64,000 bases of DNA, from assembly GCA_017308375.1 (NCBI GenBank), contig JAFKEW010000041.1:62001-126000 (forward strand), written 5' to 3'. The position numbers and the translations under genes are program-made. Positions 13,164-38,006 of the stretch are shown piece after piece. The notes under the pieces are model-generated. The model had not been told where the DNA came from, made no database searches, and was given only the letters and a program-made list of their open reading frames with translations. The stretch comes from Alphaproteobacteria bacterium. Its GTDB lineage: Bacteria > Pseudomonadota > Alphaproteobacteria > Micropepsales > Micropepsaceae. Numbering within the stretch: position 1 is the stretch's first letter; each line of letters opens with the position of its first letter.

Positions 13164-15289
13164 GCGCGGCCGGTACGGAACCTGGTCGCAGCGCCGGAAG
13201 GCGGCCCGTCATGGCCGGAATCGATTCGGACTTGATTCTTCCGGCCCTTTGGCAAGCCATCCGCAAGCTCAATCCCCGGGCCATGGTGCGAAATCCGGTG
13301 ATGTTTGTGGTTGAGGTTGTCACCGTGCTGACGACCATTCTGTTTCTTCGTGATCTGGCGATGGGCCGCGGTGGCCAACTCTTTTCATTCCAGATCAATC
13401 TGTGGCTCTGGTTCACGTTGTTGTTCGCCAATTTCGCAGAGGCGATTGCCGAAGGCCGCGGCAAAGCGCAGGCCGACACATTGCGCCGGATGAAGATCGA
13501 CCTTGAAGCGAAGCTGATGCCCGGCCCCGAACTGAAGGTTTGGCGCAAAGTGCCCGCTGCGCAGTTGGAGCGCGGTGATTTCGTGCTGGTTGAAGCCGGC
13601 GATCTGATCCCTTCCGACGGGGAGGTTGTTGAAGGCGTCGCCTCGGTTAACGAGGCTGCGATTACCGGCGAAAGTGCACCGGTCATCCGTGAATCCGGGG
13701 GCGACCGCTCTGCCGTCACGGGCGGAACGCGTGTCTTGTCGGACTGGATTGTGGTGAAGATCACCGCGTCCAAAGGAAACACCTTTCTCGATCGCATGAT
13801 TGCATTGGTCGAAGGGGCGGAGCGTCAGAAAACACCCAACGAAATTGCGCTGAACATCCTGCTTGCCGGCATGACGCTGATCTTCGTTTTTGCCGTGGCG
13901 GCGATTCCCGGGTTTGTGCATTACGCAGGCGGCACGATCTCCATCCTGGTTCTGGTGGCGCTTTTCGTGACCCTGATTCCGACCACGATCGGGGCGCTGC
14001 TCTCCGCAATCGGTATTGCGGGCATGGATCGCCTGGTCCGCTTTAATGTGCTTGCCGTGTCAGGGCGGGCGGTGGAAGCGGCGGGCGATGTCGATATTCT
14101 ATTGCTCGACAAGACCGGAACCATCACACTCGGCAATCGCCAGGCATCGGCCTTTCTGCCACTTCCCGGTGTGGAAGAACGCGATCTGGCGGAAGCAGCC
14201 CAGTTGGCATCGCTTTCGGATGAAACGCCGGAGGGCCGTTCCATCGTCGTGCTGGCGAAGGACAAATATGGCCTGCGTGGGCAGGAGTTCGCGTCTCACG
14301 AAACGCACTTCGTGCCCTTCACGGCCGCAACGCGAATCAGCGGCATTGATCTCAATGGCACAATTATTCGCAAAGGTGCCGCCGATGCGGTTCTGGGCCA
14401 TGTTCGTACGCTGAAAGGGTTTCCAGAGTCGAAAAACCCTGTCGCCGCCGCTGCCGAAACGCTTGGTCCGGAGACCGCGCGCAGCTTTCTCGCCCTTGTG
14501 GAACGTATTGCGAAATCTGGTGGCACACCGCTCGCGGTGGCGCGAAATGACAGGGTGCTCGGCCTGATCCATTTGAAGGACGTCGTGAAGGGCGGAATCC
14601 GTGAACGTTTCGCGGCACTGCGGAAGATGGGAATCCGGACGGTCATGGTCACCGGCGATAATCCGCTTACGGCCGCGGCCATTGCCGCCGAATCCGGTGT
14701 CGATTCTTTCCTCGCCCAGGCAACACCGGAGGCCAAGCTCGCCCTCATCCGTGAAGAACAGGCGAAGGGGAAGCTCGTTGCGATGTGCGGCGACGGCACC
14801 AACGATGCACCGGCATTGGCTCAGGCTGATGTCGGCGTGGCGATGAACACGGGCACCATGGCCGCGCGCGAGGCCGGAAACATGGTCGATCTCGACAGTG
14901 ATCCAACAAAACTGATTGAGGTGGTGGAGATCGGTAAACAATTGCTGATGACGCGTGGCGCGCTGACGACTTTCTCCATCGCCAATGATGTCGCCAAATA
15001 TTTCGCCATTCTTCCGGCGATGTTCGTTGCTTTTTATCCGGCGCTAGGCGCGCTCAACATCATGGCCCTTCACTCGCCGCGAAGCGCCATCCTGTCCGCA
15101 ATCATTTTCAATGCGCTGATTATCGTGGCGCTGATCCCGCTTGCGTTGAAGGGGGTACGATACCGGCCTGTCGGGGCAGCCAGCATCCTGCGCCGCAATC
15201 TGCTTGTCTATGGCCTCGGCGGCATTCTTATTCCCTTCGCGGGCATCAAATTAATCGACATTCTTGTGATGGCCATGGGCCTCGCCTAG
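13160..15289 (+). CDS. kdpB: Potassium-transporting ATPase subunit B (P-type ATPase)
   Basis: A 709-residue catalytic subunit that hydrolyses ATP to drive K+ import. The phosphorylation motif [11 protein letters not shown] puts the aspartyl-phosphate at about residue 317. The actuator motif [10 protein letters not shown] and the hinge [16 protein letters not shown] are intact. An N-terminal extension of about 17 residues precedes the usual start; a second in-frame Met (MAGIDSD) is possible, but the ATGA overlap with kdpA favours 13160. Confidence 0.97.
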
Positions 15290-15298
15290 GAGGCGCGC

Positions 15299-15880
15299 AT
15301 GTTACGGCAACTTCGCCCGGCATTCCTGATGATCGTGCTTCTCACGGTTCTGACCGGTATCGCCTATCCGCTCGGGATGACGGGCCTTGCACAGATACTG
15401 TTTCCTGATCAGGCCAATGGCAGTCTGATCAGAAAGGATGGGCATGTGATTGGCTCCATCCTGATCGGGCAGGGCTTCTCCGAACCCGGCTACTTCCATG
15501 GCCGTCCCTCGGCTGCCGGCAAAGGTTATGATGCTGCCAATTCATCAGGTAGCAATCTGGGTCCAACCTCCCGGTTGCTGGTCGATCGCGTGAAGGCCGA
15601 TGCGAAGGCGCTGCACAAGGAAAATCCTGATATGCCGGTGCCGGTCGATCTCGTCACAACATCGGCCAGCGGTCTTGATCCGGACATCACCCCGGCGGCC
15701 GCCTATTTCCAGGTACGGCGGGTGGCGAAGGCGCGCGGGCTCCCCGAAGCGGCCGTGCGCCAGCTCGTCCTCCGCAACACCACACAGCGTGTTCTGGGCC
15801 TGCTTGGCGAGCCGCATGTGAATGTGCTGCAGCTGAATCTGGCACTGGATGCGATGCAGGCGGCCAGGCATGCGCTATAA
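15299..15880 (+). CDS. kdpC: Potassium-transporting ATPase subunit C
   Basis: 193 residues with one N-terminal membrane helix and the conserved periplasmic signatures [11 protein letters not shown] and [15 protein letters not shown] at 15288-15293 positions the ATG. It completes the KdpFABC complex and sits seven bases before kdpD. Confidence 0.96.
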
Positions 15881-15887
15881 TTGAAGC

Positions 15888-18584
15888 ATGACCGATGAGG
15901 CCACCCGTCCGTCGCCCGACGCTCTGCTGAAACAGGCGGCCGGGAAAAAGCGCGGCCGGCTCAAGGTATTTCTGGGTGCCGCACCGGGTGTCGGCAAAAC
16001 CTATGAAATGCTGAGCGAGGCGCGCCAGCGCCGCGTGGATGCGGGTGATGTTGTCATTGGCGTGGTGGAAACCCACGGCCGTATCGAAACCGATATGCTG
16101 ACCAGGGGTTTCGAGGTCATTCCGAAGAAGCGCATGCTCTACAAGGGGCGCGTGCTGGCGGAAATGGATCTCGATGCCATCTTGCAGCGTAAGCCGGCAC
16201 TGGCCCTGATCGATGAGCTGGCCCACACCAATGTGCCGGGCAGCCGCCATGCGAAGCGCTATCTCGATGTGGAGGAGCTGCTTGATAACGGTATTGATGT
16301 CTACACGACGCTGAATGTTCAGCATCTGGAAAGCCTGAACGATGTCGTTGCGCAGATTACCCATGTGCGCGTGCGGGAGACTGTACCGGATGCCATTCTG
16401 GATCATGCCGACGATGTGGAGCTTGTCGACATCACGCCGGATGATCTTTTGCAGCGGCTGAAGGAAGGCAAGATCTATCTCCCTGATACCGCCCGGCGTG
16501 CTGCACATAATTTTTTCGCGCCCGGCAATCTGACGGCACTGCGTGAAATGGCACTGCGCCGTACGGCGCAGCGTGTCGATGCGCAGATGGTCGATTACAT
16601 GCGCGCGCATGCCATATCTGGCCCTTGGGAGGCGGGGGAGCGTCTTCTCACCTTTGTTGATGCGCAGCCGGGCAGCGCGATGCTGCTTCGTTATACGCGC
16701 CGGCTGGCCGACAAATTGCAGGCCCCCTGGGCGGCAATTCATGTGGAGACAGCGCAGGCTTCGGGCTTGAGCGAGACGGACCGTGACAAGGTTGCGGAAG
16801 TCCTGCGCATGGCCGAACGGCTGGGGGGTGAAGCCATAACCGTGCCGGCGGTCAGCATTGCCGAAGGCGTTCTTGATTACGCACGGTCCAACAATTTTAC
16901 GCAGATCGTCGTTCCCGGCGCACGGCGATCGGCTTTTTTCGGATGGTGGCGCCCGCCGCTTGCATTTGAAATCATACGTGGTGCCGGTGGCATGGGGGTC
17001 CATGTCGTGCCGGATGCGGCGGGCGATGTGCCGGGTGGCCCGGTGCCGCCATCTTTCGCGTTGCTTCGCCCCACGCTCGATACCCGTGCTTATGCCGGCG
17101 GCCTTCTCTACACACTTGGCGCCTTGGCCGTGGGGCTGGCATTAAGACAGTTTCTGGGCATCACCAGCGTGGCGCTCGTGTTCCTGACTGCCGTTCTTGC
17201 CAGTGCTATTGCCTATGGTTTGTGGCCTGCTCTTTTTGCCAGCCTTGTCAGCGTTCTGGCCTACAACTTCTTCTTTCTTCCGCCGCTGCACACGTTTCAG
17301 ATTGCCGATCCTGAGAATGTCAACGCCCTGTTCTTTTTCGCTGTTGTGGCGTTCATTGCCAGCGATCTGACATCGCGGGTTCGCGCGCAGGCGCAGGCGG
17401 CCCGGGAACGTGCGAAAGCGACGGAAGATCTTTATCTCTTTAGCCGTAAGCTCGCTGCCGTGTATACGCTGGATGATCTTCTATGGGCCGCGGCGTTTCA
17501 GTTTGCGCAGATGCTGAAGGTGCATGTGGTAATCCTGCTTCCCGAAGGCGGGCATGTTGCGGTGCGCGCAGGCTACCCCCCGGAAGATACGCTGGATGAG
17601 GGCGATATCGCGGCCGCCAAATGGGTGTGGGAACGCGGCGCACCCGCCGGGCGTGGCGCGGATACGCTCCCGGGTGGGAAGTGGTTGTTCCTGCCAATGC
17701 GCACCGGGCGGGGAACAGTCGGTGTGGTGGGACTGAGCAGTGAAAAGCAAGGTCAGCTCCTCACCCCCGATCAGCGCCGGTTGTTTGATGCCCTCGCAGA
17801 TCAGGCGGCGCTTGCCATCGAACGGGTCAATCTCGCACAGGATAGCGATCATATCCGGCTGATTGCAGAAACGGAAAAATTGCGCTCCGCCCTTCTGACA
17901 TCGATCAGCCACGACCTGCGTACACCGCTTGCTTCCATTCTGGGTGCGGCCAGCAGCCTGAAATCTTATGGCGGGACACTCGCGGATGCGGAAAAGCAGG
18001 AATTGCTGTCTTCGATCCTGGAAGAAGCGGAGCGTCTGAATCGCTTCATTGCCAATTTGCTCGATATGACACGGCTGGAATCAGGGGCCATCATCCCCAA
18101 GCTGGAATTGGTTGATGCGGGTGATGTTGTTGGCAGTGCGCTTCGCCGTGCATCGAAAGTGCTGGCGCAACACGATGTCGTTCTGGCACTGGCCACGGGC
18201 CTGCCGATGCTGAAGCTCGATCCGGTGTTGTTTGAACAGGCCTTTTTCAATCTTCTGGATAATGCTGCCAAATATGCCCCGGCCGGAACGAAGGTCCTGG
18301 TGGCGGGGGAGCGTGTTGGTATGCATGTGCGGCTTTCCGTGGCCGATAGCGGTAACGGTATCCCCGCCGGCGATATTGAACGCATTTTCGATAAATTCTA
18401 TCGCGTTCAGGTGGCGGACCGCGCGCGCGCCGGAACGGGGTTGGGGCTTGCGATCAGCCGTGGATTTGTTGAGGCCATGGGCGGCACCCTGACCGCCGCC
18501 AATCGCGGCGATGGCCATGGCGCCGTCTTCACGATCACGCTTCCTGTACCTGAAACAGATGAAAGGGAAGGGCGCGCAGCATGA
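15888..18584 (+). CDS. kdpD: KdpD sensor histidine kinase
   Basis: 898 residues in the full KdpD layout: an N-terminal KdpD domain with a Walker A (GAAPGVGKT), a universal-stress-protein domain ending around residue 370, four closely spaced membrane helices (about 395-500), a GAF-like region, then HisKA and HATPase. The phospho-accepting His is H675 in [10 protein letters not shown] and G boxes ([19 protein letters not shown]) are present. It senses low K+ or turgor and phosphorylates KdpE. Its last codons overlap kdpE by four bases. Confidence 0.97.
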
Positions 18585-19270
18585 CGGCTCCTTTGCGTGT
18601 GCTTGTGATTGATGATGAGCCGGCAATCCGCCGCTTTCTGCGGGTAAGTCTTGCCGCGCAAGGTTATCTGGTGCTGGAAGCGGATAGTGGGGAGAGTGGA
18701 TACGCCCTGCTTCAGCGCAATACGGTCGACGTCGTGATCCTGGATCTCGGGCTTCCGGGCGTCAGTGGCCTGGATATCCTGAAGAGGCTGCGGGAAGGTG
18801 GTTCATCGGTGCCTGTGATTGTGCTCTCCAGCCGGAGTGACGAGGGCGGAAAGGTCACGGCCCTCGATATGGGTGCCGATGATTATGTTACCAAACCCTT
18901 CGGTATGGATGAGTTGCTGGCGCGCATCCGTGCTGCGGTCCGCCACCGGCTGCAGCAGGAGGGCGAGCGGCCGATATTCAAAAGCGGCGATCTCGCCGTC
19001 GACCTCGTGCATCGTGTCGTGACTGTCGGCGGGGCAGAGGTGAAATTGACGCCGCGCGAATATGATCTCTTGCGTCTTCTGGTCATGCACGCAGGTAAAG
19101 TCCTGACGCACAAATTCCTCCTGCGCGAGGTCTGGGGCAGCGAGACGGATGTTCAATATCTGCGAATCTATATCCGCACCCTGCGGCAGAAGATCGAGGC
19201 CGATCCCGTGCAACCGGCATTGATCCAAACAGAGCAAGGCGTGGGCTACAGGTTGAAAATATTTGAATAG
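18581..19270 (+). CDS. kdpE: KdpE response regulator
   Basis: 229 residues of OmpR/PhoB type: receiver domain with acidic pair D11-D12 and phospho-acceptor D55 (VILDLGLPG), Lys in TKPFG, then a winged-helix domain ending VGYRLKIFE. It activates kdp transcription when phosphorylated by KdpD. It closes the operon; the PhyH gene at 19286 converges on it after 15 bases with no clear terminator. Confidence 0.96.
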
Positions 19271-19285
19271 CGGTTCTGCCGCACG

Positions 19286-20107
19286 TCAGTGGAATTTCAG
19301 CTTTCGTAGCTGCGGGTAATCAGCACTCTTCGCAGAATCGTTGCTTCCGAACCCCAGCATTTCGCGCAAGCGCGGGCTTGATTCCTGCAACACTTCGTCA
19401 GGAACGGTGGCAAACCAATTGAATTGCGGGCGAATGAAAGACCGCGTGTAATAGGCGAAAAGCCCAGTGCGTGTCTGGTCTTTTGACGTGTTCGGACCGG
19501 TTTGGTGCCACACCCGGCCATCCATCACGAAAACAGAGCCTGCCTTGCACTGTATCGGGCGTGTCTCCCGGACGATGGGAATAGCATCGCTGCCGGCATA
19601 ATCCGGCCCGTGCTGCATGTGGTATGAACCTGGAACATAGCGCGTTGCACCATTGTCTGCCCGGAAATCGTCGATAGCCCACGCGATGTTGAGCGCGATG
19701 GGGTAAGGTGGCCATGGCACCGGCATATAGCCTGCATCGGCGTGCATGTTCATGGCACCGGACCCGGGTGCCGTGATATTCCCCGAGAAATTCGACAGCA
19801 GGAAATTATCGCCCAGCCAGAAGCTTGCAAGGTCGACGGCGATCGGGTGCTCGACCAGGTCGCGGAATGTGCGGTCCTTACTGACAAGATCGAACAGGCG
19901 AATGTTGCGGTCATCGGGGTCGAAGGCAAAGCCCTGAAGCTGGATATCCGCCTTACGGTCGGATTCAACGCCGCGCTTCACCGCATCGCGGACGCGCGCA
20001 AGGCCGACCTGGTCCAGTACGCTCTCGATGATGACGAGGCCATGCTGTTTCAGATACGCCTTCGCGGCTGCAAGTTCTTCAACGGGGAATGTGGAAATCG
20101 TGTTCAA
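19286..20107 (-). CDS. Phytanoyl-CoA dioxygenase (PhyH) family protein, copy 1
   Basis: A 273-residue Fe(II)/2-oxoglutarate oxygenase. The metal triad is visible as NMHAD (H122, D124) and GRVWHQTG (H201), with the 2-oxoglutarate Arg about twelve residues on (R213). The start is a TTG: GGGAGG sits six bases before the TTG at 20107, while the alternative TTG at 20113 overlaps the upstream TGA but touches the Shine-Dalgarno. Translation is probably coupled to the lyase gene. PhyH enzymes hydroxylate carbon 2 of branched acyl-CoAs, but bacterial members also act on many small molecules. Partnership with the neighbouring ThDP lyase suggests alpha-oxidation. Confidence 0.88.
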   Translation of the reverse strand: MNTISTFPVEELAAAKAYLKQHGLVIIESVLDQVGLARVRDAVKRGVESDRKADIQLQGFAFDPDDRNIRLFDLVSKDRTFRDLVEHPIAVDLASFWLGDNFLLSNFSGNITAPGSGAMNMHADAGYMPVPWPPYPIALNIAWAIDDFRADNGATRYVPGSYHMQHGPDYAGSDAIPIVRETRPIQCKAGSVFVMDGRVWHQTGPNTSKDQTRTGLFAYYTRSFIRPQFNWFATVPDEVLQESSPRLREMLGFGSNDSAKSADYPQLRKLKFH

Positions 20108-20109
20108 TG

Positions 20110-21867
20110 TCAACCTCCCGATTTTAATGGCTCTGCCGCCGCAAGCGGAATGTTCTCGTAATAGGGAATGGAGATCTGATCTTCGGCGGAAACATCACCC
20201 ACCATTGCCACGGTGATGGGGTGCACAATATCCGCATCGACGATCAGATTGATGCAGGCTGGTTTTCCGGAGGCGAGCGCCCGCTTGACCGCGGGTACCA
20301 CGTCTTCATAGCGGTCCACCCGCTCGCCATAGCCGCCAAACGCCGCCGCAACGGCGTCATAATTCGTATCCGACAGGGCCACGGCTGCGCGCCTGTTGGC
20401 GCCGAAGACCAGGTCCTGTCCGTTCTGCGACATGCCCCAGCAGGCATTATTCAACACAATGGTCAGGATTGGCATTGCGTGCCGTACCATGGTGTCGAAT
20501 TCCTGAATGTTGAATCCGGCTCCGCCATCGCCGGTAAAGCACACGATCGGCGTATCGGGGCATGCGCGGGCGGCGCCAATGGCAAAACCCGGTGCCACGC
20601 CAAGACAGCCAAGATAGCCACAGGTCATGAAGTGGCCCGGCCCGGCCGATTTCAACTGGTCCTGCACCCAACACCCTGCCTCGCCGCCATCGGAAATCAC
20701 CAGCGTGTCGGGGCGCAGCGCTTCGAACACCGCAGCAACCGCATGAAAGGGATGCATGGCGTGGGGCTTGGGTTGTTTTGGCGCCTTCAGGAACGCCGCA
20801 CCACGCAGGCGCCGGAAGTCCTGCAACATCGCGGACCATTTATCCCGTCTAGGCCAGGTGTGGTGGTCCGCGGCATCGGCGAAGGCGCGCATTGTCTCGG
20901 AGCAATCCGCCACGATCCCGATATCGGCGGGCCGAAGCCGGCCGATTTCCGCACCATTAATGTCGATCTGAATCACTTTTGCCGTGTGCGGAATCACACC
21001 TCCGCTGCGTCCGCCGGTGAACATGCCCATTCGCGCACCCAGCAGGATGACAACATCCGGCCCGTGGCCTGCGAAGTTCGCCGCCCCAATGGTGCTGGTT
21101 AGCCCGGCATAGCAGGGGTGGTCATGTGGCAACACACCCGTGGCTTTGGAATTGGCGGCAACCGGTATGCCCGTCCGTTCGGCAAACCGCAGCAGCGGTT
21201 CGCTTGCCGGTGACAGAACGCTTCCGGCTCCGGCAATCATCACCGGCCGCTCCGCGGTCAGCAGAAGGGCCATTGCCGCATCGATTGCATCTGCGGCAGG
21301 CGCAGGCCGTGCCGGCAATTGCAGCGGTTTCACCTGCCGCCAGCCCGCTTCTGCCGGAGCGAACATGACGTCGATCGGTATTTCGAGGAACACCGGCCCC
21401 GGCCGTCCGGTCAGCGCGATTTGAACCGCGTGCGAGACCAGATCGGCGATTCGCTCGGCATTGGTGATGCGATGCGCCAATTTGGTCACCGGTGCCGCCA
21501 TGGCAACCTGATCGAACCCGCCCTGCAGCGGATTGGTTTGCGCTTCCCGCAATGGTGGGGAGCCCGAGATGAAAAGAACCGGCACACCATCGAGATAGGC
21601 GTTGGCGATGGCCGTCAGGCTGTTGGTGAAGCCGGGACCCGCGGTGGTAACGCAAACCCCGATCCGCCCGCCGCTCGCGCGGGCATAGCCGTCGGCGGCA
21701 TGGCCCGCACTTGCCTCATGCCGCGCGTCGGTCAACCGGATTCCAGCATCGGCACAGGCCGTCAGAAAGGAATCCAGGTGGCCGCCATGCAGGGTGAAAA
21801 CCTCCGCCACCTCGCATGCCGCAAGCGCGCGCGCCAGAAGATCGCCACCTGAGATTTTCGCTTTCAT
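20110..21867 (-). CDS. Thiamine-diphosphate-dependent lyase (2-hydroxyacyl-CoA lyase or acetolactate-synthase-like)
   Basis: 585 residues, close to the length of 2-hydroxyacyl-CoA lyase. The ATG at 21867 has AGGAG nine bases upstream; an open frame extends further but overlaps the upstream PhyH gene. Three ThDP-enzyme domains are present: a Pyr domain with the cofactor-activating Glu E51 (RHEASAGHAADG), a central domain, and a PP domain with GDGGAGFNIQEF leading to NN for Mg-ThDP. The HGGHLD segment resembles the IlvG-like branch rather than true anabolic IlvB, and no regulatory small subunit is nearby. Between two PhyH genes, cleavage of a 2-hydroxyacyl-CoA to an aldehyde and formyl-CoA is the most sensible guess. 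Confidence 0.8.
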   Translation of the reverse strand: MKAKISGGDLLARALAACEVAEVFTLHGGHLDSFLTACADAGIRLTDARHEASAGHAADGYARASGGRIGVCVTTAGPGFTNSLTAIANAYLDGVPVLFISGSPPLREAQTNPLQGGFDQVAMAAPVTKLAHRITNAERIADLVSHAVQIALTGRPGPVFLEIPIDVMFAPAEAGWRQVKPLQLPARPAPAADAIDAAMALLLTAERPVMIAGAGSVLSPASEPLLRFAERTGIPVAANSKATGVLPHDHPCYAGLTSTIGAANFAGHGPDVVILLGARMGMFTGGRSGGVIPHTAKVIQIDINGAEIGRLRPADIGIVADCSETMRAFADAADHHTWPRRDKWSAMLQDFRRLRGAAFLKAPKQPKPHAMHPFHAVAAVFEALRPDTLVISDGGEAGCWVQDQLKSAGPGHFMTCGYLGCLGVAPGFAIGAARACPDTPIVCFTGDGGAGFNIQEFDTMVRHAMPILTIVLNNACWGMSQNGQDLVFGANRRAAVALSDTNYDAVAAAFGGYGERVDRYEDVVPAVKRALASGKPACINLIVDADIVHPITVAMVGDVSAEDQISIPYYENIPLAAAEPLKSGG

Positions 21868-21905
21868 ATCCGGCACTCCTGCTCTGCCAGTGCGGTCTTG
21901 CAATC

Positions 21906-22715
21906 CTAGATCGGGTCGTAACCGTTGACATGGCCGAAAAAGGTGTCGAGCCGATAGCCCAGCATCCACAAAAGATCTTCCGACGCGCCCTGCCGCACCA
22001 GCGGGTTGAGCGAGAGGAACCAGTTTTCCTGCGTGCGGTAGATCTTCCGCACATTCCACGCGAAAATACCGGCGCGGCGCTCATTGGCGGTGACGTTACA
22101 GCCGGTGCGATGCCAGATGCGGCCTTCCATCACGCACATGGTTCCAGCCGACGCTTCGAGAGGCACGAAATATGATTCCGCCTCTGCGTCGTCCTTGGGC
22201 ATCCGGTTCAGGCGATGGCTACCAACCGCGACGTGGGTGGCGCCATTGTCGGCGGTGAAATCGTCTACCAGCCAGAAGCAATTGGCGCCTTGCGGCCGTG
22301 CGGGCCAGGGTTCTGGAACGAAGAGCTGATCGGCATGGATCACCATGCCGTCGTGGCCAGGCCCCGCAATGTTGGCGGAGATGCTGGAGAGCAGAAACGG
22401 CCATTCCAGCAGGTATTTCAGAAGTTCGATGCTTCTTGGATCTTCAACCAGATCGACAAATTCCTGCCCCCGGTTCAGCAGGCCCCAGATACGCTGGTTG
22501 TTGCTGTCATGATCGCCGCCGCTCGAACTGCTTGGCCGCTTCAGGCGCACATCGTCATCGGCGGCTGCATAAAGGCGATTCCGCAGCCGCGTCAGTTGCT
22601 CCGTACCCAATGCGCGGTCAATCAGGCATATGCCGAATTCGTCCAGGTCGCGCTTCGCCTTTTCAAGATCCTGGGTCGGCTTCGGTGGTTTGATCCGGTT
22701 GGGTACGATGTTCAT
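21906..22715 (-). CDS. Phytanoyl-CoA dioxygenase (PhyH) family protein, copy 2
   Basis: 269 residues, with the Fe(II)/2-oxoglutarate triad H127-D129 (VIHADQ) and H202 (GRIWHRTG) and the 2-oxoglutarate Arg at R214. It shares the DDF-ADNGAT segment and overall layout with copy 1 but is clearly diverged. It lies 29 bases behind the TonB receptor, with AGGAGG before its ATG, and 38 bases ahead of the ThDP lyase. Two copies with all ligands intact suggest two hydroxylation steps or two chain classes. Confidence 0.88.
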   Translation of the reverse strand: MNIVPNRIKPPKPTQDLEKAKRDLDEFGICLIDRALGTEQLTRLRNRLYAAADDDVRLKRPSSSSGGDHDSNNQRIWGLLNRGQEFVDLVEDPRSIELLKYLLEWPFLLSSISANIAGPGHDGMVIHADQLFVPEPWPARPQGANCFWLVDDFTADNGATHVAVGSHRLNRMPKDDAEAESYFVPLEASAGTMCVMEGRIWHRTGCNVTANERRAGIFAWNVRKIYRTQENWFLSLNPLVRQGASEDLLWMLGYRLDTFFGHVNGYDPI

Positions 22716-22744
22716 ATGCCTGTTCCTCCTCTTGCGGCGGCGCC

Positions 22745-24880
22745 TTAGAATCGCTGCTCAAAGGTAACGCCGATCTGGCGCGGGAATGGCGTTACAAAGC
22801 GGCCGGAGTCGACGGCGGCAGGTCCACGCTCGTTGGTCGCGTTCTCAACGAAGAACATCAGCGATTTGGTGTCGTCACTGATGCCGGCCCGGAAGCCCAG
22901 AAGGTTGAGGTTCGCCGCGTCCATACCGGTCACGATGTCCTTCTGCTTGGAATTGTAAGTATAACGCCCGATCAGGTTCAGCATGTAGGGGGAATTACCC
23001 AGCGGCGTGATGTAATCCACGTTCAGGCTGCCGGTGAACCGCGGCGTTCCGGGAAGCTGCTTCCCATCCGCAAGCCAGGGCAGAAGCGCCGTTATCGCGG
23101 GTTGCACGTCCTGCAGTTCGGTGCTGTTGATGTTTGCAACGGCGCTCAGGCGCAATCCTTCGATCGGCGTCAGATACACCAGGGTCAGGTCGGCGCCGCG
23201 GCCCTGTACGTCGCCGGCGCTGATGATGCCGTTGATACCGGCCGGCGAGAATTGAAGCTGGGCCTTCTTCCAGTTGAAATTGTAGAGTGCGGCTTCAAAT
23301 TGCAATGTGTTGTTCAGGAACTGCCACTTTGTGCCCACTTCATAGTTCCACAGCGTATCGGGCCCAAGCGCAGTGCTGGCCGATATGCCGAGCAGGCCGA
23401 GTGCCTGAACCGATGCGTTGCTCTGCACCGCGCCGCTACGGAAGCCCTTGGCGATCTCGGCGTAGAACATGCCGTTATCGGTCATGTGATAGGCAAGGTT
23501 GAAGCGTGGCGTGAAGGCCGCGTTGTTGCCGTCTCTCGTATCGCCGGAAACCGTTGTGCTTGGCGGTGTGAACACGGTGAAGATCGAGGTGCCGTCGAGC
23601 GTTCTGTGCTCGTGAAAATAGCGGCCGCCGATGGTGGGGATCAGCCGCCCGCCAAGCAGGTTTGCAGACACTTCACCATAAACGGCCCAGCTGACGGAGG
23701 ATGTCTTGTTGTTGGTTGTCGCAAGGAAACCTGGAATAGTGACTGAGAAATCCTGGTTCGATGCGTAATCCGAATGGCGGTAGAACGCACCGGCAACGTA
23801 GTTGATCAGGCCATCGGTTTTGGACGTCAGCCGCACTTCCTGTGAAAAGGCGTGCGCCCGTCCGAGTGTGGCAATGTTATAGGTGCCGAAGGTGGGCTGG
23901 CTGCCGATCGCAATCAGGTTTGTGCCCTGATTAAGATATCCGGTCGCGCTCAAAAGGTCCGCGAAACCCAGATCGTATTCAATGTTACCGGTGAAGAGCT
24001 TGTAGTTGACCGGCGATTGCCCAAGGCCTGTATCATTCGCAAAATAGGGATCGATGCCATCCATCCGGTTGGTGAAGCCGGTCTTGGTGTTATTGCCCCA
24101 GAACGCGAGTGAGATACGGAGTTTTTCCGTCGCCTGATAAAGCACTTTCAGGCGACCCGAAATGCTGTCGACGCTGTTGCCGTCCTTCAGGTTCATATTC
24201 GGAATGTCGACATAGCCGCCAATGCGCTCAAAACTCAGCACACCACGAACGGCGAGCGTATCTTCGATGATCGGAATGTTGATCATCGCATCGGCCGAAT
24301 AGCTGGGTGAGCCATCCTGCGTGGACGATGCGCTGGCGCGCATGCTGCCCTCGATCAGGTTGAGATCGGGGTCATTGGTCAGAACCTTGATCGTCCCGCC
24401 GAGGGAGCCCTGCCCGTAAAGTGTGCCGGAAGGTCCGCGCAGAACTTCCACGCGCTTCAGATCGTAAAGATTGGTCGATGGCGCAAAGGGAAGGCCGGGA
24501 ATGCTGAAGGCGAATTCGTCCAGATAGAATCCGGTTGTGCTGTCGCCGATTGTCTGGCTGGCGGATACGCCGCGGATCTGAAAGACCTCAGTTCCGGCCG
24601 ACATTTCAGCTGGCATCGATGCACTCGGCACAAGCGCCAGGCTGGATTTAAGATCGGTGACGCCGTTCCGGCTGAGTTGCTCTGCCGTCAGGGCTTGAAC
24701 CGCCTGCGGCACATCGATAAGCGCCTGCTCGCGGCGGGATGCCGTGACCGTCACGGTTTCGATCCCGGCTGAAGCCTGTTCGGCGCCGGATGTTTGAGAA
24801 ATGGCCGGTCCCGCTGACAAGCCATATCCCGCCATCGCGATGGCGGCCGTGCTATGGAGAAATACTTTCTTGCTAATCAT
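22745..24880 (-). CDS. TonB-dependent outer-membrane receptor
   Basis: 711 residues: signal peptide ending at AISQ (about residue 29), TonB box IETVTVTA, plug with RVEVLRGPSGTLYGQGSLGG, long barrel and a canonical C-terminal Phe (VTFEQRF). It is a paralogue of the receptor at 3102 across its whole length. It is the second gene of the minus-strand operon, between an SCP2-like protein and the PhyH/ThDP-lyase genes, and is therefore the likely importer of the substrate they degrade. Confidence 0.93.
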   Translation of the reverse strand: MISKKVFLHSTAAIAMAGYGLSAGPAISQTSGAEQASAGIETVTVTASRREQALIDVPQAVQALTAEQLSRNGVTDLKSSLALVPSASMPAEMSAGTEVFQIRGVSASQTIGDSTTGFYLDEFAFSIPGLPFAPSTNLYDLKRVEVLRGPSGTLYGQGSLGGTIKVLTNDPDLNLIEGSMRASASSTQDGSPSYSADAMINIPIIEDTLAVRGVLSFERIGGYVDIPNMNLKDGNSVDSISGRLKVLYQATEKLRISLAFWGNNTKTGFTNRMDGIDPYFANDTGLGQSPVNYKLFTGNIEYDLGFADLLSATGYLNQGTNLIAIGSQPTFGTYNIATLGRAHAFSQEVRLTSKTDGLINYVAGAFYRHSDYASNQDFSVTIPGFLATTNNKTSSVSWAVYGEVSANLLGGRLIPTIGGRYFHEHRTLDGTSIFTVFTPPSTTVSGDTRDGNNAAFTPRFNLAYHMTDNGMFYAEIAKGFRSGAVQSNASVQALGLLGISASTALGPDTLWNYEVGTKWQFLNNTLQFEAALYNFNWKKAQLQFSPAGINGIISAGDVQGRGADLTLVYLTPIEGLRLSAVANINSTELQDVQPAITALLPWLADGKQLPGTPRFTGSLNVDYITPLGNSPYMLNLIGRYTYNSKQKDIVTGMDAANLNLLGFRAGISDDTKSLMFFVENATNERGPAAVDSGRFVTPFPRQIGVTFEQRF

Positions 24881-24939
24881 ACCTGTTTGCCCCGTTTGTG
24901 TTTTGGTTGGCTACGCAAAGAGATCGTGATGCTGCTGTG

Positions 24940-25422
24940 TTATGCCGCCACCGTCCGTGCGACGATCCGGTCGTGCAATTCCTGCAGTGGGATCGGGCAC
25001 GCGGCGGATGTTCCCGTGACTTTGAATTTTCCGGCGCGCGTGAAGTGCTCTGAGGCCCTGGAAAGCTCCGGCCCGTTTTTCATACTCGCGAGTTGGATGC
25101 CAGCCTGCCAGTCGATGTGGACGATGAGATCGGCTGTTTCCTCGGCTGTGACGCTGGTCCGGAACGTGATCGTGCCGTCGCGGAAATCCATGCGATAACC
25201 GGGGAGGCCCGCTCGCGGCCGGACCTCAATTGGTGCGTCGAGAAATATTTCGACGAGGCTGAATGCGGCATGCGTTTTGGGCGCGGCCCGCAACAGCGCG
25301 CGCGCTTCCTCGCGAAGGATCGCAAGCCACGCTGGGCTGCCGTAAAGCGTTTGGCCGCCTACGCCTGCGCGATCCGCTTCGGGCACACGCCCGCATGCCG
25401 GAGCATCGCTGTGCGTGCTCAT
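24940..25422 (-). CDS. Small SCP2-like protein, first gene of the PhyH operon
   Basis: 160 residues, no signal peptide. The ATG at 25422 is chosen because GGGAG lies five bases upstream; a Met five codons earlier has no such site. The C-terminal half (ADLIVHIDWQAGIQLASMKN, then GKFKVTG) resembles the sterol-carrier-protein-2 fold, in which a buried strand and the GK-KVxG segment line a lipid pocket. This is a weak match made by eye. If right, it would hand a hydrophobic acyl or sterol-like substrate to the operon enzymes. Confidence 0.55.
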   Translation of the reverse strand: MSTHSDAPACGRVPEADRAGVGGQTLYGSPAWLAILREEARALLRAAPKTHAAFSLVEIFLDAPIEVRPRAGLPGYRMDFRDGTITFRTSVTAEETADLIVHIDWQAGIQLASMKNGPELSRASEHFTRAGKFKVTGTSAACPIPLQELHDRIVARTVAA

Positions 25423-25474
25423 GGCATCTCCCTGCATTCCTTCCCGATAGCCGCTCTGCCTGCGGTATTTTCAG

Positions 25475-25523
25475 ATTGTTATAGTGGACTCTAATGGAGT
25501 CAAGACTTTTTAGAGTGTACACT
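25475..25523 (-). promoter_or_regulatory. Promoter and operators of the PhyH/ThDP-lyase operon
   Basis: Read on the minus strand, TTGACT (plus-strand 25498-25503) and AACAAT (25475-25480) are separated by 17 bases. The inverted repeat GACTC-TAATG-GAGTC (25487-25501) lies in the spacer, and a 10-bp palindrome AGTGTACACT (25514-25523) lies just upstream. Both are natural operators for the divergent TetR regulator at 25659. Confidence 0.55.
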
Positions 25524-25658
25524 AATTTCAGTATGGTGCATGACGGCATCCGCTGGGCCGCACAACCCTGGAATTCCATCAGGCCGCGCTCAGATGGTAT
25601 ATCGGCGGTCAAGTCATCCCGGGGGGTGTCAGGGTGGGATTATACATCTTAATACGAC

Positions 25659-26393
25659 ATGAACGAACATATGCGATTGAAGCTGATGCTGATTGACGGC
25701 GAACGAAAAACGGATGCTGGGGCCAAAGAGCTGTCACGCCGCGACCTCGGGAAGAAGGAGCGGCGCACGCGTATCGTGAATGCTGCGTATGATCTGCTGC
25801 GCGAGGCGGGCGTTGATGCGTTATCCGTGATAAAGGTTGCGGAGCGTGCGCGTGTCAGTCCTGCAACCGTTTACAATCTTTTCGGTACCAAGGGCGCCAT
25901 TCTCGCCCAGGTGTTCGATCAGGACCTGAAGGCTTTTACAACGGTTGTCGGCCGTGCGCGGGCTGCCGATGCGCTCGATCATATCTTCAAGGCGATTTCC
26001 ATTGCGGCGGGTTTGTACAAGGAGGATCCCGGCTTTTACCGCGCCATCATGCATATGCGGCCAAATCAGGCGGATCCGGATCTTTATGCGGCCATGCGTG
26101 CGCCCAGGATCGAGTTTTGGCGCGGCATGATTCACAAGGCCGGTGAAGAAGGCCTTCTGAGACGGGACGCGAATAGCGGTATTCTTTCCGTCCTCGCGAC
26201 ACAGATCGCGAGTGGTGTTCTTGCTGAATGGGTTTCAGGCGTCATCTCCGCTGATCAGCTCGAACGGGAAACGAGCTACGGCTTTGCAGTCATCTTGATG
26301 CAATACGCAACGCCAAAGGGTGCGAAGAAACTGGCACCGCGCATCGCGGCCCTGGAAAAGGCCCTTGCGCAATATAGCCGCCGCCGCGCTTAG
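25659..26393 (+). CDS. TetR/AcrR-family transcriptional regulator
   Basis: 244 residues. The helix-turn-helix is VIKVAERARVSPATVYNLFG (about 52-71), preceded by a 30-residue basic leader. The ligand domain gives no inducer. It is transcribed divergently from the SCP2-like/TonB/PhyH operon, with palindromes in the shared 236-base gap, so it is the presumed repressor of that operon. The ATG lacks a strong ribosome-binding site; an alternative ATG lies four codons downstream. Confidence 0.88.
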   Translation: MNEHMRLKLMLIDGERKTDAGAKELSRRDLGKKERRTRIVNAAYDLLREAGVDALSVIKVAERARVSPATVYNLFGTKGAILAQVFDQDLKAFTTVVGRARAADALDHIFKAISIAAGLYKEDPGFYRAIMHMRPNQADPDLYAAMRAPRIEFWRGMIHKAGEEGLLRRDANSGILSVLATQIASGVLAEWVSGVISADQLERETSYGFAVILMQYATPKGAKKLAPRIAALEKALAQYSRRRA

Positions 26394-26504
26394 GTCGCCC
26401 GTCCGTCGGGCGGGACAATGCCTTTGGCCGTCATTCAGAACATATCTATTACATGTCAATGGCTTAATTTGTGTTTGACTTTTGATGGGTTCGATGGAAT
26501 GTTG

Positions 26505-26519
26505 GAACAAACAGAGAAC
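26505..26519 (+). promoter_or_regulatory. LexA (SOS) box of the imuA-imuB-dnaE2 operon
   Basis: GAAC at 26505-26508, seven bases, GAAC at 26516-26519: an exact match to the alphaproteobacterial LexA operator (GTTC-N7-GTTC read from the other strand). A TTGACT at 26475-26480 may be the -35. The box ends six bases before the imuA ATG, so it covers the leader just downstream of the promoter. Confidence 0.85.
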
Positions 26520-26525
26520 AAAAAG

Positions 26526-27290
26526 ATGAATGCGTCCTTCAAACCGAACTTGAAAACCCTGCCGGGGGGTGTACCCGGACTGGCGCTGGCCCGCGCTCCC
26601 CTCGGCCATGTGGCGGCCGACGCCTGCCTTTGCGGCGGCCTGCTGCCGGGCGCAGTGCATGAAGTGTTTGCCGCCATGGCGGGTGCGGGGGCTGCGGCTT
26701 CCGGTTTCGCGCTGGCGCTCGCGCTGCGCGCACTTGCGAAGCCCAAATGGCTTCTCTGGGTGCGTCAGGACTTTTCGGCGCTGGAACTGGGTGAGATCCA
26801 TGCCGATGGATTGCACGATTTCGGGGCCGATCCATCCCGAGTGCTGCTTCTGCGCGCGCCCGATGCCAATGCGGTGTTGCGCGGCGGGGCGGATGGGTTG
26901 GGCTGCAAGGGGCTTGGCGCCGTGATTGTTGAACCCTGGGGGTCTGCGCCCATGTTCAATCTCACTGCCAGCCGCAGACTGCTTCTCGCTGCCAGGCAGC
27001 ACGGCATCACCGTGATTGTTTTGCGGCATGGCTGCGCACCGGCACCCAGTGCAGCGGAGACACGCTGGCTGATCCGGCCTGCGCCGTTGGCACCCGATGA
27101 TGAGGATCGGGGGATACCGCGCTTTGATGCGGCGCTGCTGCGCAACCGGCATGGGCCTGCGGGGCGTTGGATGATGGACTGGGATTGCAACAATGGAATC
27201 TTCCGAACGGCGCATTCTCGCGCTTCTGTTCCCCCGTTTACCGGTCGATCGGTTGAAGCGCCGCTGGAAGATCTCCGGCAGGCTGGATAA
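26526..27290 (+). CDS. imuA: ImuA, mutasome accessory protein
   Basis: 254 residues from the ATG at 26526. Upstream start codons are rejected because they would place the SOS box inside the coding region. RecA-like ImuA features are visible: GGLLPGAVHEVF, LLWVRQDFSALELGEIHADG and GAVIVEPWG. ImuA works with ImuB and DnaE2 in error-prone translesion synthesis after DNA damage. Its 3' end overlaps imuB by 98 bases in another frame, a normal arrangement for this cassette. Confidence 0.9.
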   Translation: MNASFKPNLKTLPGGVPGLALARAPLGHVAADACLCGGLLPGAVHEVFAAMAGAGAAASGFALALALRALAKPKWLLWVRQDFSALELGEIHADGLHDFGADPSRVLLLRAPDANAVLRGGADGLGCKGLGAVIVEPWGSAPMFNLTASRRLLLAARQHGITVIVLRHGCAPAPSAAETRWLIRPAPLAPDDEDRGIPRFDAALLRNRHGPAGRWMMDWDCNNGIFRTAHSRASVPPFTGRSVEAPLEDLRQAG

Positions 27291-28743
27291 GCGTCCGCTT
27301 GTCGTTGCGGGGAAAAGTGGCAACGTCCTGCAATTGACATCTGTCGATATGCCCGCGGCAAAGCTCGGGCTTTATCCGGGCAAGGCGCTGGCCGATGCCC
27401 GCGCCATGGTGCCGGATCTCGCGGTTATTCGTGCAAACGAACCTGCGGATCGCAAATTGTTGGAGGCGATTGCCGATTGGTGCGTGCGCTACACGCCGCT
27501 GGTGGCGCTCGATCCGCCCCACGGCCTGTTTCTCGATGTCACGGGGGTTGCGCATCTTTTCGGCGGTGAAGCCGGGCTGCTGCAAGATGCCGTTCGGAAA
27601 TGCACCGCACAGGGTTTCCTGGTTCATGCCGCGCTGGCCACAACGGCGGAAGCGGCGCGCGCGCTCGCCCAATCCAAACCGGGCACCGTTGTGCCGCCGG
27701 GTGGGGAGGCCGAAGCGGTTGCGCCACTCCCGACCGACGCCCTGAACACGAAGCCTCACATCATCTATGCGTTAAAGCGTGCGGGGCTGAAAACCATCGG
27801 TGAGGTAGTAGGCCGCACACGCCAGGAATTGGCGTCGCGTTTCGGCGGCAGTTTTGTATTGCTGCTTGAGCGCACGCGCGGCCGTAATGGCGGGCCGATC
27901 ACACCGCGCATACCAGTCCCCTTGCTGATGGCGGAGCGGCGCTTTGCCGAACCGGTTACGGCCGGAACTGCCATTGCGGAAACCCTGCTGTCGCTCAGCA
28001 AAGACATTGCCGTCATTCTGGAGCCGCAGGGACAGGGCGTACGTATTCTGGAAGCTTGTTTCTTCCGCGCCGATGGCCAGGTACGTCATGTGACGATCGA
28101 AACCGGGCATGCGATCCGTGAACCCACGCTTATCGTGCGCCTGTTTCAGGAGAAACTGGACGCGCTGATCGATCCGCTGGACCCGGGCTTTGGCTTCGAC
28201 GTGATCCGGCTGTCGGTCCTGTCGGTTCAGGTCATACCGGTGGAAAACATCGGCTTCGATACCCGGTCTTGCGAGCAGGATGTGGCCTTCCTGGTCGACA
28301 GGCTGGCAGCGCGGTTCGGTGCACAACGCATATTGCGGTTCCTCCCTCAGAACACTCATATTCCAGAGGCTGCTTCCATTGCTGCTCCCGCACAATATAC
28401 CGAACCCGTTGCGGGGCCGTGGCGGGTGGAGCGGGACTCTGATGGGACGCCTTCCCGTCCGCTTCGGCTATTCGCCAAGGCTGAGCCCATCATCGTTCCG
28501 GAGGAAGATCTTGCCGGCATGCCGGTGCGGTTTTACTGGCGGCACGCCTTGCACAGGCTGGCACACGCCGAAGGGCCGGAGCGTATCGCCACGGAATGGT
28601 GGCACTACCAAAACCCGGGCCACACGCGGGATTATTTCCGTGTCAAAGATGAGGAAGGGCAGCATTTCTGGATCTATCGCGAAGGTTTGCCGGATCGTGA
28701 AACGTTGCAGCCACGCTGGTTCATGCACGGGTTGCTCGCATGA
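27193..28743 (+). CDS. imuB: ImuB, Y-family-polymerase-like mutasome scaffold
   Basis: 516 residues. The N-terminus (RILALLFPRLPVDRL, DPPHGLFLDVTGVAHLFGGE) has the Y-family polymerase fold, but ImuB proteins are catalytically inactive and serve as the hub that binds the beta clamp and DnaE2. The protein runs to the C-terminal HFWIYREGL segment typical of ImuB. Its stop overlaps the dnaE2 ATG in ATGA (28740-28743). Confidence 0.92.
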   Translation: MESSERRILALLFPRLPVDRLKRRWKISGRLDKRPLVVAGKSGNVLQLTSVDMPAAKLGLYPGKALADARAMVPDLAVIRANEPADRKLLEAIADWCVRYTPLVALDPPHGLFLDVTGVAHLFGGEAGLLQDAVRKCTAQGFLVHAALATTAEAARALAQSKPGTVVPPGGEAEAVAPLPTDALNTKPHIIYALKRAGLKTIGEVVGRTRQELASRFGGSFVLLLERTRGRNGGPITPRIPVPLLMAERRFAEPVTAGTAIAETLLSLSKDIAVILEPQGQGVRILEACFFRADGQVRHVTIETGHAIREPTLIVRLFQEKLDALIDPLDPGFGFDVIRLSVLSVQVIPVENIGFDTRSCEQDVAFLVDRLAARFGAQRILRFLPQNTHIPEAASIAAPAQYTEPVAGPWRVERDSDGTPSRPLRLFAKAEPIIVPEEDLAGMPVRFYWRHALHRLAHAEGPERIATEWWHYQNPGHTRDYFRVKDEEGQHFWIYREGLPDRETLQPRWFMHGLLA

Positions 28744-31700
28744 CGGGCTATACCGAAATCGCGGTCACGACGAATTATTCGTTTCTGCGCGGTGCGTCGC
28801 ATCCAAAAGAATTGGTGGTCATGGCCGCGCGATTGGGGCTCGATGCCATCGGCATTGCGGATCGCAATTCACTCGCCGGCGTGGTACGCGCCTGGGATGC
28901 ACTGAATCAGATGCGCGAACAGGGGACGGAGAAACTTCCCAAATTGCTGGTGGGAGCGCGGCTGGCCTTTGTCGATGGCACGCCGGATATACTTGCCTAT
29001 CCTGTCGATCGTGAAGCCTATGGCCGCCTTTGCCAGTTAATCAGCGAAGGGAAACTTCGTACAAAGAAAGGTGATTGTATCCTCACTCTGTACGATCTGC
29101 TGGGACATCAGGAAGGGCTGCTGCTGGCGGTGGTGCCGCCGCCACACCCCGGTAATGAAACCGAAAAGGTGCTTACCCATCTCTTGCCGAAGCTGGGTGA
29201 CCGGCTGTGGCTTGCGGCGTCCATGCTCCATCGCGGGCGCGACCGCAGACGATTGTTCTTTCTCCGCCGTCTCGCGGAAGCTGTTGGTGTGCCACTGATT
29301 GCGATCAATGATGTGCTCTATCACGCGCCTGAACGGCGCCCGTTGCAGGATATCGTGACCGGCATCCGCGAGCATGTGACCCTGGAACGGGCAGGGCGTC
29401 TTTTGGAGGTGAATGCCGAACGCCACTTAAAATCTCCGGAGGAAATGGCGCGTCTGTTTCGGGATATGCCGGAAGCGCTGGCCGAAACTCTGCACTTCGC
29501 CAAACAGATCGAATTTTCGCTTGGTCAAATCCGCTATAATTATCCTGATGAGCCGGTGCCGGGCGGCAAAACACCGGACGAACATCTGGCCGATCTCACC
29601 TGGAACGGGGCTGCCCGGCGCTATCCCCATGGTGTACCGGAGCAGGTGCGCACAACGCTTGCGAAGGAATTGGCGCTGATCACCAAATTGGCGATCGCGC
29701 CTTATTTTCTCACTGTGCATGACATTGTGCGCATTGCCGAAGAAAAGAAAATTCTATGCCAGGGTCGTGGTTCGGCCGCCAATTCTGCCGTTTGCTATGT
29801 GCTTGGCATTACCTCCGTTAATCCTGCGGAGGTCGATCTCCTGTTCGAACGCTTCATCTCGCAGGAGCGTAAAGAACCACCCGATATCGACGTCGATTTT
29901 GAGCATGAGCGGCGGGAGGAGGTGATACAGGCCGTATACAAACGCTATGGCCATGAGCGCGCGGCCTTGACGGCCACGGTCATCACCTATCGCCCGCGCA
30001 GTGCCATCCGGGATGTCGGGAAAGTGTTCGGCCTGACGGAAGACGTCACCTCTGCGCTGGTCAGCGGGCTTTGGGGCAGCGGGGACAAGGAGAGTTTGGG
30101 AGAAAAAAAGGACAAACGAATACGTCAGGCAGGTTTCACGCCGGGCAACCCGGTGGTGGAACAAGCTGTCTTTTTTGCCAGGCAGTTATGCGGCTTTCCT
30201 CGCCACCTGTCGCAGCATGTGGGCGGTTTTGTGCTCACGCAGGATCGGCTGGACACGATCGTGCCGATTGGTCCCGCCGCGATGAAGGATCGGTATTTTA
30301 TCGAGTGGGACAAGGACGATATCGACGCGCTGGGCATCATGAAGGTTGATGTTCTGGCACTCGGGATGTTGACCTGTATCCGCAAGGCCTTTGATCTGAT
30401 CGGCCTTTATGACCGAAAGCCGGATTTGGCCATGCCGCGTGACGATCCGGCGGTCTATGACATGTTGTGTGATGGTGATGCGATCGGCGTGTTTCAGGTC
30501 GAAAGCCGTGCCCAGATCAACATGCTGCCGCGGCTGAAACCGCGCGATATTTATGATCTTGTGATTGAAGTGGCGATTGTGCGGCCCGGCCCGATCCAGG
30601 GCAATATGGTGCACCCTTACCTCAAGCGCCGTAAGGATAGAAATTTAATTGTCATTCCAAAGCCGGCGCCCGAACACGGGCCGGCTGATGAGCTTGAGCA
30701 TATTCTGGGGAAAACCTGCGGCGTACCGCTGTTTCAGGAACAGGCGATGCGTCTTGCCATTACCGCCGCGCGTTTCACGCCAGAGGAAGCCAATCGGTTG
30801 CGCCGGTCCATGGCGACATTCCGCAATGTCGGTACGGTCGGGCAGTTTGAAAAGAAACTGGTAGAAGGAATGGTTGCGCGGGGCTATGAACGTGCTTTCG
30901 CACAGAACTGCTTCAATCAGATCAAGGGTTTTGGTTCTTACGGTTTTCCCGAAAGCCATGCGGCAAGTTTTGCTTCGCTTGTTTATGTCTCCGCCTGGAT
31001 TAAGCGCTATCATCCGGCGGCGTTTGCCTGTGCATTACTCAATTCGCAGCCCATGGGGTTTTATGCACCTGCCGAGATCGTGCGCGATGCGCGCGATCAT
31101 GGCGTAGAGGTTCGTCACCCTGATGTAAACGCCAGTGAGTGGGACAATATATTGGAGTTTGGCACAGACGGTTCGCGGGCCCTGCGTCTTGGCTTCCGCC
31201 AGATTGAAGGTTTCAAGCAGGACTGGGCGTTTGCGATTCTGGAATACCGTGACAACGGGCTTTCCAGTTTTGAATCCTTTGTGCGCCGCACGGGGTTGTC
31301 CAAACGGGCATTGATCATTCTGGCTGAGGCGGATTGTTTCGGTTCGCTCGGTCTGGACCGGCGTGAAAGCCTCTGGATGGTGCGCCGTCTTCCTGATGAT
31401 GAAGCCCTCCCTCTGTTTGCGGCGCAGTTCACGGAGGATATCGCTGAAGAAATTACCGCGCCGCTGCCCATCATGCCGCGCAGTGAGCATACGATTACGG
31501 ATTATGAGATGATGCGGCTATCGCTGCGCGCCCATCTGATGGAATTCTTGCGTGACTCTTTTCATGCGGAAGGTGTTATGAGTTGTGCCGGCGTTCAAGC
31601 CGCGGCCGATGGCACGCTGGCGTGTTGTGCCGGAATTGTTCTGACCCGGCAGCGGCCGGGCGATTCCGGCGTTGTTTTTGTCACGCTCAGCGATGAAACG

Positions 31701-32000
31701 GGTATCTGTAATGCGGTGGTGTGGCCATCGGTCTTTTCGCACTACAGGAAAGAGGTGATGGGCGCCCGCCTTTTATTGATCAAGGGTAAGGTTCAGCGCA
31801 GCAACGAAGATATCGTGCATTTGATTGCCGAATCTTTTGAAGACCGTACAACGGCCCTTGACCGGCTTTCAGAAAATGCCATCTGGCAGGCTCCCGGCTC
31901 ATCGGAAAGCGTTGGCCACCCATCTACCAATATACAGGCCTCTCTCCATCGCCATCCACACAATGTGCGCGTGCTGCCGAAGTCACGAGACTTTCATTGA
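28740..32000 (+). CDS. dnaE2: Error-prone DNA polymerase III alpha subunit DnaE2
   Basis: 1086 residues, the usual DnaE2 length. It starts with the PHP domain (TTNYSFLRGASHP), carries the polymerase acidic pair D382/D384 in PDIDVDFEHER, the fingers and helix-hairpin-helix region (FPESHAASFA) and a C-terminal OB fold. It is the translesion polymerase of the ImuAB-DnaE2 mutasome, induced through the upstream LexA box. The downstream neighbour converges after 25 bases. Confidence 0.97.
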   Translation: MTGYTEIAVTTNYSFLRGASHPKELVVMAARLGLDAIGIADRNSLAGVVRAWDALNQMREQGTEKLPKLLVGARLAFVDGTPDILAYPVDREAYGRLCQLISEGKLRTKKGDCILTLYDLLGHQEGLLLAVVPPPHPGNETEKVLTHLLPKLGDRLWLAASMLHRGRDRRRLFFLRRLAEAVGVPLIAINDVLYHAPERRPLQDIVTGIREHVTLERAGRLLEVNAERHLKSPEEMARLFRDMPEALAETLHFAKQIEFSLGQIRYNYPDEPVPGGKTPDEHLADLTWNGAARRYPHGVPEQVRTTLAKELALITKLAIAPYFLTVHDIVRIAEEKKILCQGRGSAANSAVCYVLGITSVNPAEVDLLFERFISQERKEPPDIDVDFEHERREEVIQAVYKRYGHERAALTATVITYRPRSAIRDVGKVFGLTEDVTSALVSGLWGSGDKESLGEKKDKRIRQAGFTPGNPVVEQAVFFARQLCGFPRHLSQHVGGFVLTQDRLDTIVPIGPAAMKDRYFIEWDKDDIDALGIMKVDVLALGMLTCIRKAFDLIGLYDRKPDLAMPRDDPAVYDMLCDGDAIGVFQVESRAQINMLPRLKPRDIYDLVIEVAIVRPGPIQGNMVHPYLKRRKDRNLIVIPKPAPEHGPADELEHILGKTCGVPLFQEQAMRLAITAARFTPEEANRLRRSMATFRNVGTVGQFEKKLVEGMVARGYERAFAQNCFNQIKGFGSYGFPESHAASFASLVYVSAWIKRYHPAAFACALLNSQPMGFYAPAEIVRDARDHGVEVRHPDVNASEWDNILEFGTDGSRALRLGFRQIEGFKQDWAFAILEYRDNGLSSFESFVRRTGLSKRALIILAEADCFGSLGLDRRESLWMVRRLPDDEALPLFAAQFTEDIAEEITAPLPIMPRSEHTITDYEMMRLSLRAHLMEFLRDSFHAEGVMSCAGVQAAADGTLACCAGIVLTRQRPGDSGVVFVTLSDETGICNAVVWPSVFSHYRKEVMGARLLLIKGKVQRSNEDIVHLIAESFEDRTTALDRLSENAIWQAPGSSESVGHPSTNIQASLHRHPHNVRVLPKSRDFH

Positions 32001-37961: not shown

Positions 37962-38006
37962 GGTCGGGACGCGAAACAGGCTGGGGATTCCAGCAGGGTG
38001 GAAACG

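Follow-up and report, generated by a model that had tools for sequence, protein, structure and literature searches.

Peroxisomal alpha-oxidation couples a PhyH-family hydroxylase, PHYH, which is helped by SCP2, to the lyase HACL1. The thiamine diphosphate (ThDP) fold and C-C lyase chemistry of HACL1, TbHACS and Oxc are also those predicted for the operon enzyme described here, which has the fold of benzaldehyde lyase (BAL, PDB 2AG0/2UZ1) and the engineered formolase (PDB 4QQ8) as well; BAL-type enzymes carboligate in vitro. The window analysed here, 64,000 nucleotides of contig JAFKEW010000041.1 (positions 62,001 to 126,000) from an alphaproteobacterium of the family Micropepsaceae, contains an operon of five tightly packed minus-strand genes at 19286–25437, encoding a PhyH protein (PhyH1), a ThDP enzyme, a second PhyH protein (PhyH2), a TonB-dependent receptor and a small soluble protein. 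A preliminary description had placed these five genes correctly and read them as a bacterial counterpart of alpha-oxidation. Its coupling of PhyH hydroxylation to ThDP-dependent C-C cleavage, with uptake, gained support from the conserved pairing of the genes and from their shared regulation, but its phytanoyl-CoA and HACL specifics were contradicted by clade and motifs. To judge from the sequences, a PhyH acting with a BAL-like lyase probably follows an alpha-oxidation-like logic without CoA. Within the literature covered, no relevant paper turned up on PhyH together with benzaldehyde lyase or together with HACL operons of bacteria.

The ThDP enzyme and the benzaldehyde lyase clade

The ThDP enzyme (20110–21867, minus strand, 585 aa) contained three ThDP domains, all scoring above the Pfam cut-off. 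Its longest open reading frame (20110–22059) begins with GTG and runs into the PhyH2 gene; the likely start is the ATG at 21867, which has GGAG upstream and agrees with the N-termini of relatives, and residues are numbered from it. A phmmer search against PDB sequences scored BAL at 424 bits, Herbiconiux BAL at 368, AcHACL at 250 and Oxc at 224, and identity with BAL and formolase was ~41%. An 83-sequence tree grouped the enzyme with BAL in a clade that excluded Oxc/TbHACS, IlvI and Gcl (SH-aLRT 98), and in a careful IQ-TREE analysis of 26 sequences the clade of the ThDP enzyme and BAL had a support of 100/99. BAL was located inside the clade of the ThDP enzyme, beside a Rhodococcus plasmid enzyme. 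Forcing the ThDP enzyme together with Oxc and TbHACS was rejected (IQ-TREE, p-AU 0.0004). An AlphaFold2 (AF2) model of the enzyme (pLDDT 89.6) matched formolase and BAL best (Z 46–47), followed by HACS (42) and AcHACL (40); PDB 8y7s carries the BAL name in the list of structural matches. No NCBIfam model scored above its cut-off (NF058623 for HACL, 309 vs 600; TIGR03254, 268 vs 739), and the best sub-threshold scores were those of acetolactate synthase-like models, all far below cut-off. On these comparisons of sequence and predicted structure, the enzyme belongs to the benzaldehyde lyase clade. Its assignment as a HACL, Oxc or acetolactate synthase was rejected on the tree, the motifs and the curated scores, and the HACL-type identity proposed earlier did not survive the phylogeny suggested along with it.

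Residues H27, H30, E51 and Q115 corresponded to H26, H29, E50 and Q113 of BAL and were kept in essentially all ~67 members of the family (E50 in 67/67, H29 in 67/67 and Q113 in 67/68); the corresponding residues of Oxc are Val, Pro, Glu and Glu. The catalytic His pair of BAL, conserved in the family, was absent from IlvI, and HACL1, TbHACS and Oxc have GxIP where the operon enzyme has the pair (HGxH). In place of the GKGAAY motif of Oxc and HACS, the ThDP enzyme had GAGSVL. Residue R540 of TbHACS is listed as a CoA contact in the C-terminal tail (PMC11271303); its column held Asp in the ThDP enzyme, in a comparison that reached TbHACS residue 540 only. Thus, every HACL feature open to comparison was missing, GKGAAY and the tail Arg among them. 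AcHACL has a catalytic Glu493 (PMC8760513), and residue offsets suggest that this position is probably Ser or Cys in the ThDP family.

The operon enzyme also differed from BAL itself, in a changed pocket (see below), in its linkage to PhyH genes and in two family marks that are missing from BAL, an invariant Glu396 (BAL position 395) and a C-terminal (I/V)PYYEN tail across the family. This tail was conserved in BAL-like enzymes of several phyla.

PhyH hydroxylases and their pairing with the lyase

PhyH1 (19286–20113, minus strand; PF05721, 95.7 bits) and PhyH2 (21906–22715, minus strand; PF05721, 74 bits, and alignment) were predicted to be Fe(II)/2-oxoglutarate dioxygenases of the PhyH family. 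H124, D126, H203 and R215 of PhyH1 (HxD...H...R) were invariant in 18/18 relatives, and the motif was present in both operon proteins; the ThDP enzyme had GDG...NN and Glu51, so that the catalytic residues of all three were intact, as described before. The best PDB matches of a profile of the subfamily were PrhA, AusE, SptF, DhiD, KanJ and AndA (4e-21 to 2e-17), then EctD. PrhA, AusE, SptF, KanJ and EctD (1e-21 to 1e-11) have the fold family and the HxD...H...R motif in common with the operon proteins, which differ in forming a bacterial subfamily with two subtypes and in being encoded beside a ThDP lyase. No chain labelled as peroxisomal phytanoyl-CoA hydroxylase was found among the best 60 PDB matches, and PHYHD1 scored 4e-6; the profile was nearest to natural-product and small-molecule dioxygenases. 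One PhyH of each subtype was encoded in the operon (PhyH2 being subtype 2), at locus L039 and at locus L097 on another contig (C49) of the same genome. This 3.58-Mb genome held 11 PhyH-family genes, while any match was found in only 1 of 14 control genomes.

Of 69 loci carrying a relative of the ThDP gene, 13 had PhyH genes of the same subfamily nearby, spanning Alphaproteobacteria, Gammaproteobacteria and Nocardia, an association that exceeds chance. The PhyH and ThDP frames abutted or overlapped in L021, L026, L029 and L039, and gene order differed among loci; in the operon, the PhyH1 gene starts with a TTG overlapping the stop codon of the ThDP gene, the two frames sharing 4 bases. Those PhyH-paired ThDP enzymes that were in the tree all fell in one subclade of 35 rows (support 99), and no PhyH pairing was seen at loci outside it. 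At the closest locus, in Caulobacteraceae (L056), identities were 66% for the ThDP enzyme, 61 and 65% for the PhyHs, 58% for the TonB receptor, 38% for the small protein and 54% for the TetR regulator described below. Other branches of the ThDP family were found near genes for FMO-like/FAD monooxygenases, aldehyde dehydrogenases, SDR and Zn-dependent alcohol dehydrogenase (Zn-ADH) proteins and SnoaL-like proteins. Since monooxygenase genes adjoin these branches too, an oxygenase partner is a common theme of the family.

A putative TetR operator, a second locus and the other operon genes

A divergent gene for a TetR-family regulator (25659–26393, plus strand; PF00440) and two operator palindromes upstream of the operon were absent from the preliminary description. 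Orthologues of the regulator, 42–54% identical, were encoded beside ThDP/PhyH loci L056, L029, L088 and L074. Between the TetR and ThDP genes of L074, from Chelatococcus, there was a perfect TTAGAGTnnACTCTAA, and the two putative operators of the operon, TTATAGTGGACTCTAA (25479–25494) and TTAGAGTGTACACTAA (25510–25525), each had 1 mismatch to it. At L029, L056 and L088, operator-like sites next to the orthologous TetR genes had 2–3 mismatches. Sorted by TetR similarity, the sites had 0–3 mismatches at 42–54% identity and 5–7, the background level, at <36%. In the 3.58-Mb genome, three sites had ≤1 mismatch to TTAGAGTnnACTCTAA, against ~0.16 expected from base composition, the search pattern being the perfect Chelatococcus site, picked after a half-site scan had shown the C49 site, so that the match was not fully blind. 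Two of the three sites lay before the operon, and the third preceded a type-1 PhyH gene on C49 by ~60 bp, adjoining a promoter-like TTGACA-17-AACAAT. The operator shared with this PhyH gene is the strongest single link of the analysis. The TetR protein presumably binds the palindrome.

A second PhyH pair was located at this part of C49 (C49:42000–51200, L097 and L152). The minus-strand neighbours, beginning 470 bp from the operator, encoded the second PhyH, a type III polyketide synthase (Cys-His-Asn), an MFS transporter, an FMO-like monooxygenase, a beta-lactamase-fold hydrolase, an FAD monooxygenase and an ecdysteroid-kinase-like protein, and their co-regulation is uncertain. Farther along C49 were genes for an Old Yellow Enzyme, acyl-CoA-dehydrogenase-like flavoproteins and more TonB receptors.

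Gaps between neighbouring genes of the operon were ≤59 bp. The TonB-dependent outer-membrane receptor (22745–24880, minus strand) had plug and barrel domains above the Pfam cut-off. The small protein (24940–25437, minus strand, 165 aa) belongs to an unnamed family; its gene had been noted before, with an end at 25422, which is the second ATG, and it runs to 25437. The earlier label “SCP2-like” was not confirmed: Pfam gave no match up to E 10, and hhalign against an SCP2 alignment gave a probability of 2–4%. An AF2 model built from 2 sequences was unusable (pLDDT 48), with no meaningful fold match. Across 11 genomes of the order, the family was found at 15 places, one of them (C27:24–29 kb, L105) with PhyH, TonB receptor and TetR genes ~53 kb before the operon and outside the window. 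In C47 of the same genome (60089–61057, L127) and in three related genomes (L121, L122 and L123), this domain was fused, N-terminal, to a C-terminal PhyH. Because of this fusion, the small protein probably works with PhyH, assisting it, whatever its fold.

By-eye naming of the flanking genes gave ordinary sets: just downstream of the operon (11424–19270), Kdp-like potassium-transport genes accompanied by a sensor kinase resembling KdpD and a response regulator resembling KdpE, and an ImuA-ImuB-DnaE2-like mutagenesis set directly past the TetR gene (26418–32000).

Proposed function and its alternatives

Gene content, clade, catalytic residues, PhyH-ThDP linkage and operator conservation were computed; from them we infer a reaction order, a free-carbonyl type of substrate, a catabolic direction and the binding of the regulator to its operator. 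On balance we favour, by somewhat more than even confidence, an inducible, TonB-fed module for oxidative C-C cleavage, in which PhyH hydroxylation is followed by acyloin cleavage. A PhyH would hydroxylate the carbon adjoining the carbonyl of a ketone- or aldehyde-type substrate that is free, not bound to CoA; the second PhyH subtype may add another hydroxylation. The BAL-like lyase would then split the resulting 2-hydroxy ketone (acyloin), via a ThDP-bound carbanion, into two aldehydes. TetR would repress the operon and, in trans, the PhyH gene on C49 through TTAGAGTnnACTCTAA, and the small protein probably assists PhyH.

A partial parallel is the catabolism of aryl ketones of the 4-hydroxyacetophenone type, which uses a Baeyer-Villiger monooxygenase and an esterase. 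C49 likewise contained FMO-like monooxygenase and hydrolase genes, and relatives of the ThDP gene had FMO-like neighbours; the difference is that here the ketone would be cut via hydroxylation and acyloin cleavage, not via an ester.

Several observations weigh against the proposed cleavage module. W163, Y397, A480 and F484 of the BAL pocket were replaced by Ile, Gly, Met and Gly in the ThDP enzyme, and with these aromatic-pocket residues replaced, benzoin is an unlikely substrate. The operon contained no aldehyde dehydrogenase gene. The trees did not include actinobacterial HACL (AcHACL), another CoA lyase without the ADP domain, for which searches found no member above cut-off. The intact type III polyketide synthase and the MFS transporter at C49 could point to biosynthesis, and this polyketide synthase makes a biosynthetic role the chief rival reading. 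The ThDP enzyme would then act as a carboligase joining two carbonyls, the PhyHs would tailor the product and, with the C49 genes, a secreted metabolite would be made. The mostly natural-product PDB relatives of the PhyHs, the polyketide synthase, MFS and FMO-like genes adjoining the co-regulated PhyH gene and the carboligation by BAL-type enzymes in vitro are in keeping with this. However, the TonB receptor and TetR repression fit substrate uptake, the Old Yellow Enzyme, acyl-CoA-dehydrogenase-like flavoproteins, beta-lactamase-fold hydrolase and TonB receptors at C49 are typical of degradation, and relatives of the ThDP gene are found in catabolic neighbourhoods; we regard a biosynthetic module as unlikely.

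Bacterial alpha-oxidation, in which a branched acyl-CoA would be 2-hydroxylated by PhyH and then split by the ThDP enzyme, giving formyl-CoA and an aldehyde, appears more doubtful still. A PhyH with a ThDP lyase does give the same chemical order as PHYH with HACL1, the fusion of the small-protein domain to PhyH elsewhere recalls the aid of SCP2 to PHYH, and HACL-type enzymes have the same fold as the ThDP enzyme. Against this, membership of the Oxc/HACS group was rejected by the clade test, GKGAAY and the tail Arg were absent, the HACL model scored below its NCBIfam cut-off, the operon had no CoA ligase or formyl-CoA gene and the SCP2 fold was unsupported. The branched lipid substrate, CoA activation and formyl-CoA handling envisaged earlier found no evidence within the operon, and the acyl-CoA dehydrogenases at 36759–40437, suggested to continue the pathway, had no operator at ≤2 mismatches and no linkage to it was found. 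The least probable alternative, which we consider very improbable, gives the ThDP enzyme a 2-oxo acid as substrate, as a decarboxylase or acetolactate synthase type, and places the PhyHs elsewhere in that catabolic route, in a step unrelated to it; the acetolactate synthase-like models did give the best sub-threshold scores, but all were far below cut-off, the BAL clade was firmly supported and the family keeps the His pair that IlvI has not.

The cleavage module, our preferred reading, indicates that a PhyH gene beside a ThDP lyase gene need not mean phytanic-acid alpha-oxidation, and corrects a tempting misannotation. More generally, though here our confidence falls a little short of even, PhyH with a BAL-like lyase may form a widespread, conserved unit of two steps under TetR control, probably independent of CoA, by which free ketones or aldehydes are cut to two aldehydes. 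Synthetic C1 routes and chiral synthesis make use of BAL and its engineered descendants, such as formolase; what their relatives do in nature is rarely stated. If the proposal is true, the PhyH-lyase unit would give a physiological setting for BAL-type enzymes, mainly known as biocatalysts. The conserved hydroxylase, receptor and repressor make it a testable natural pathway, the substrate of which may be approached via the regulon.

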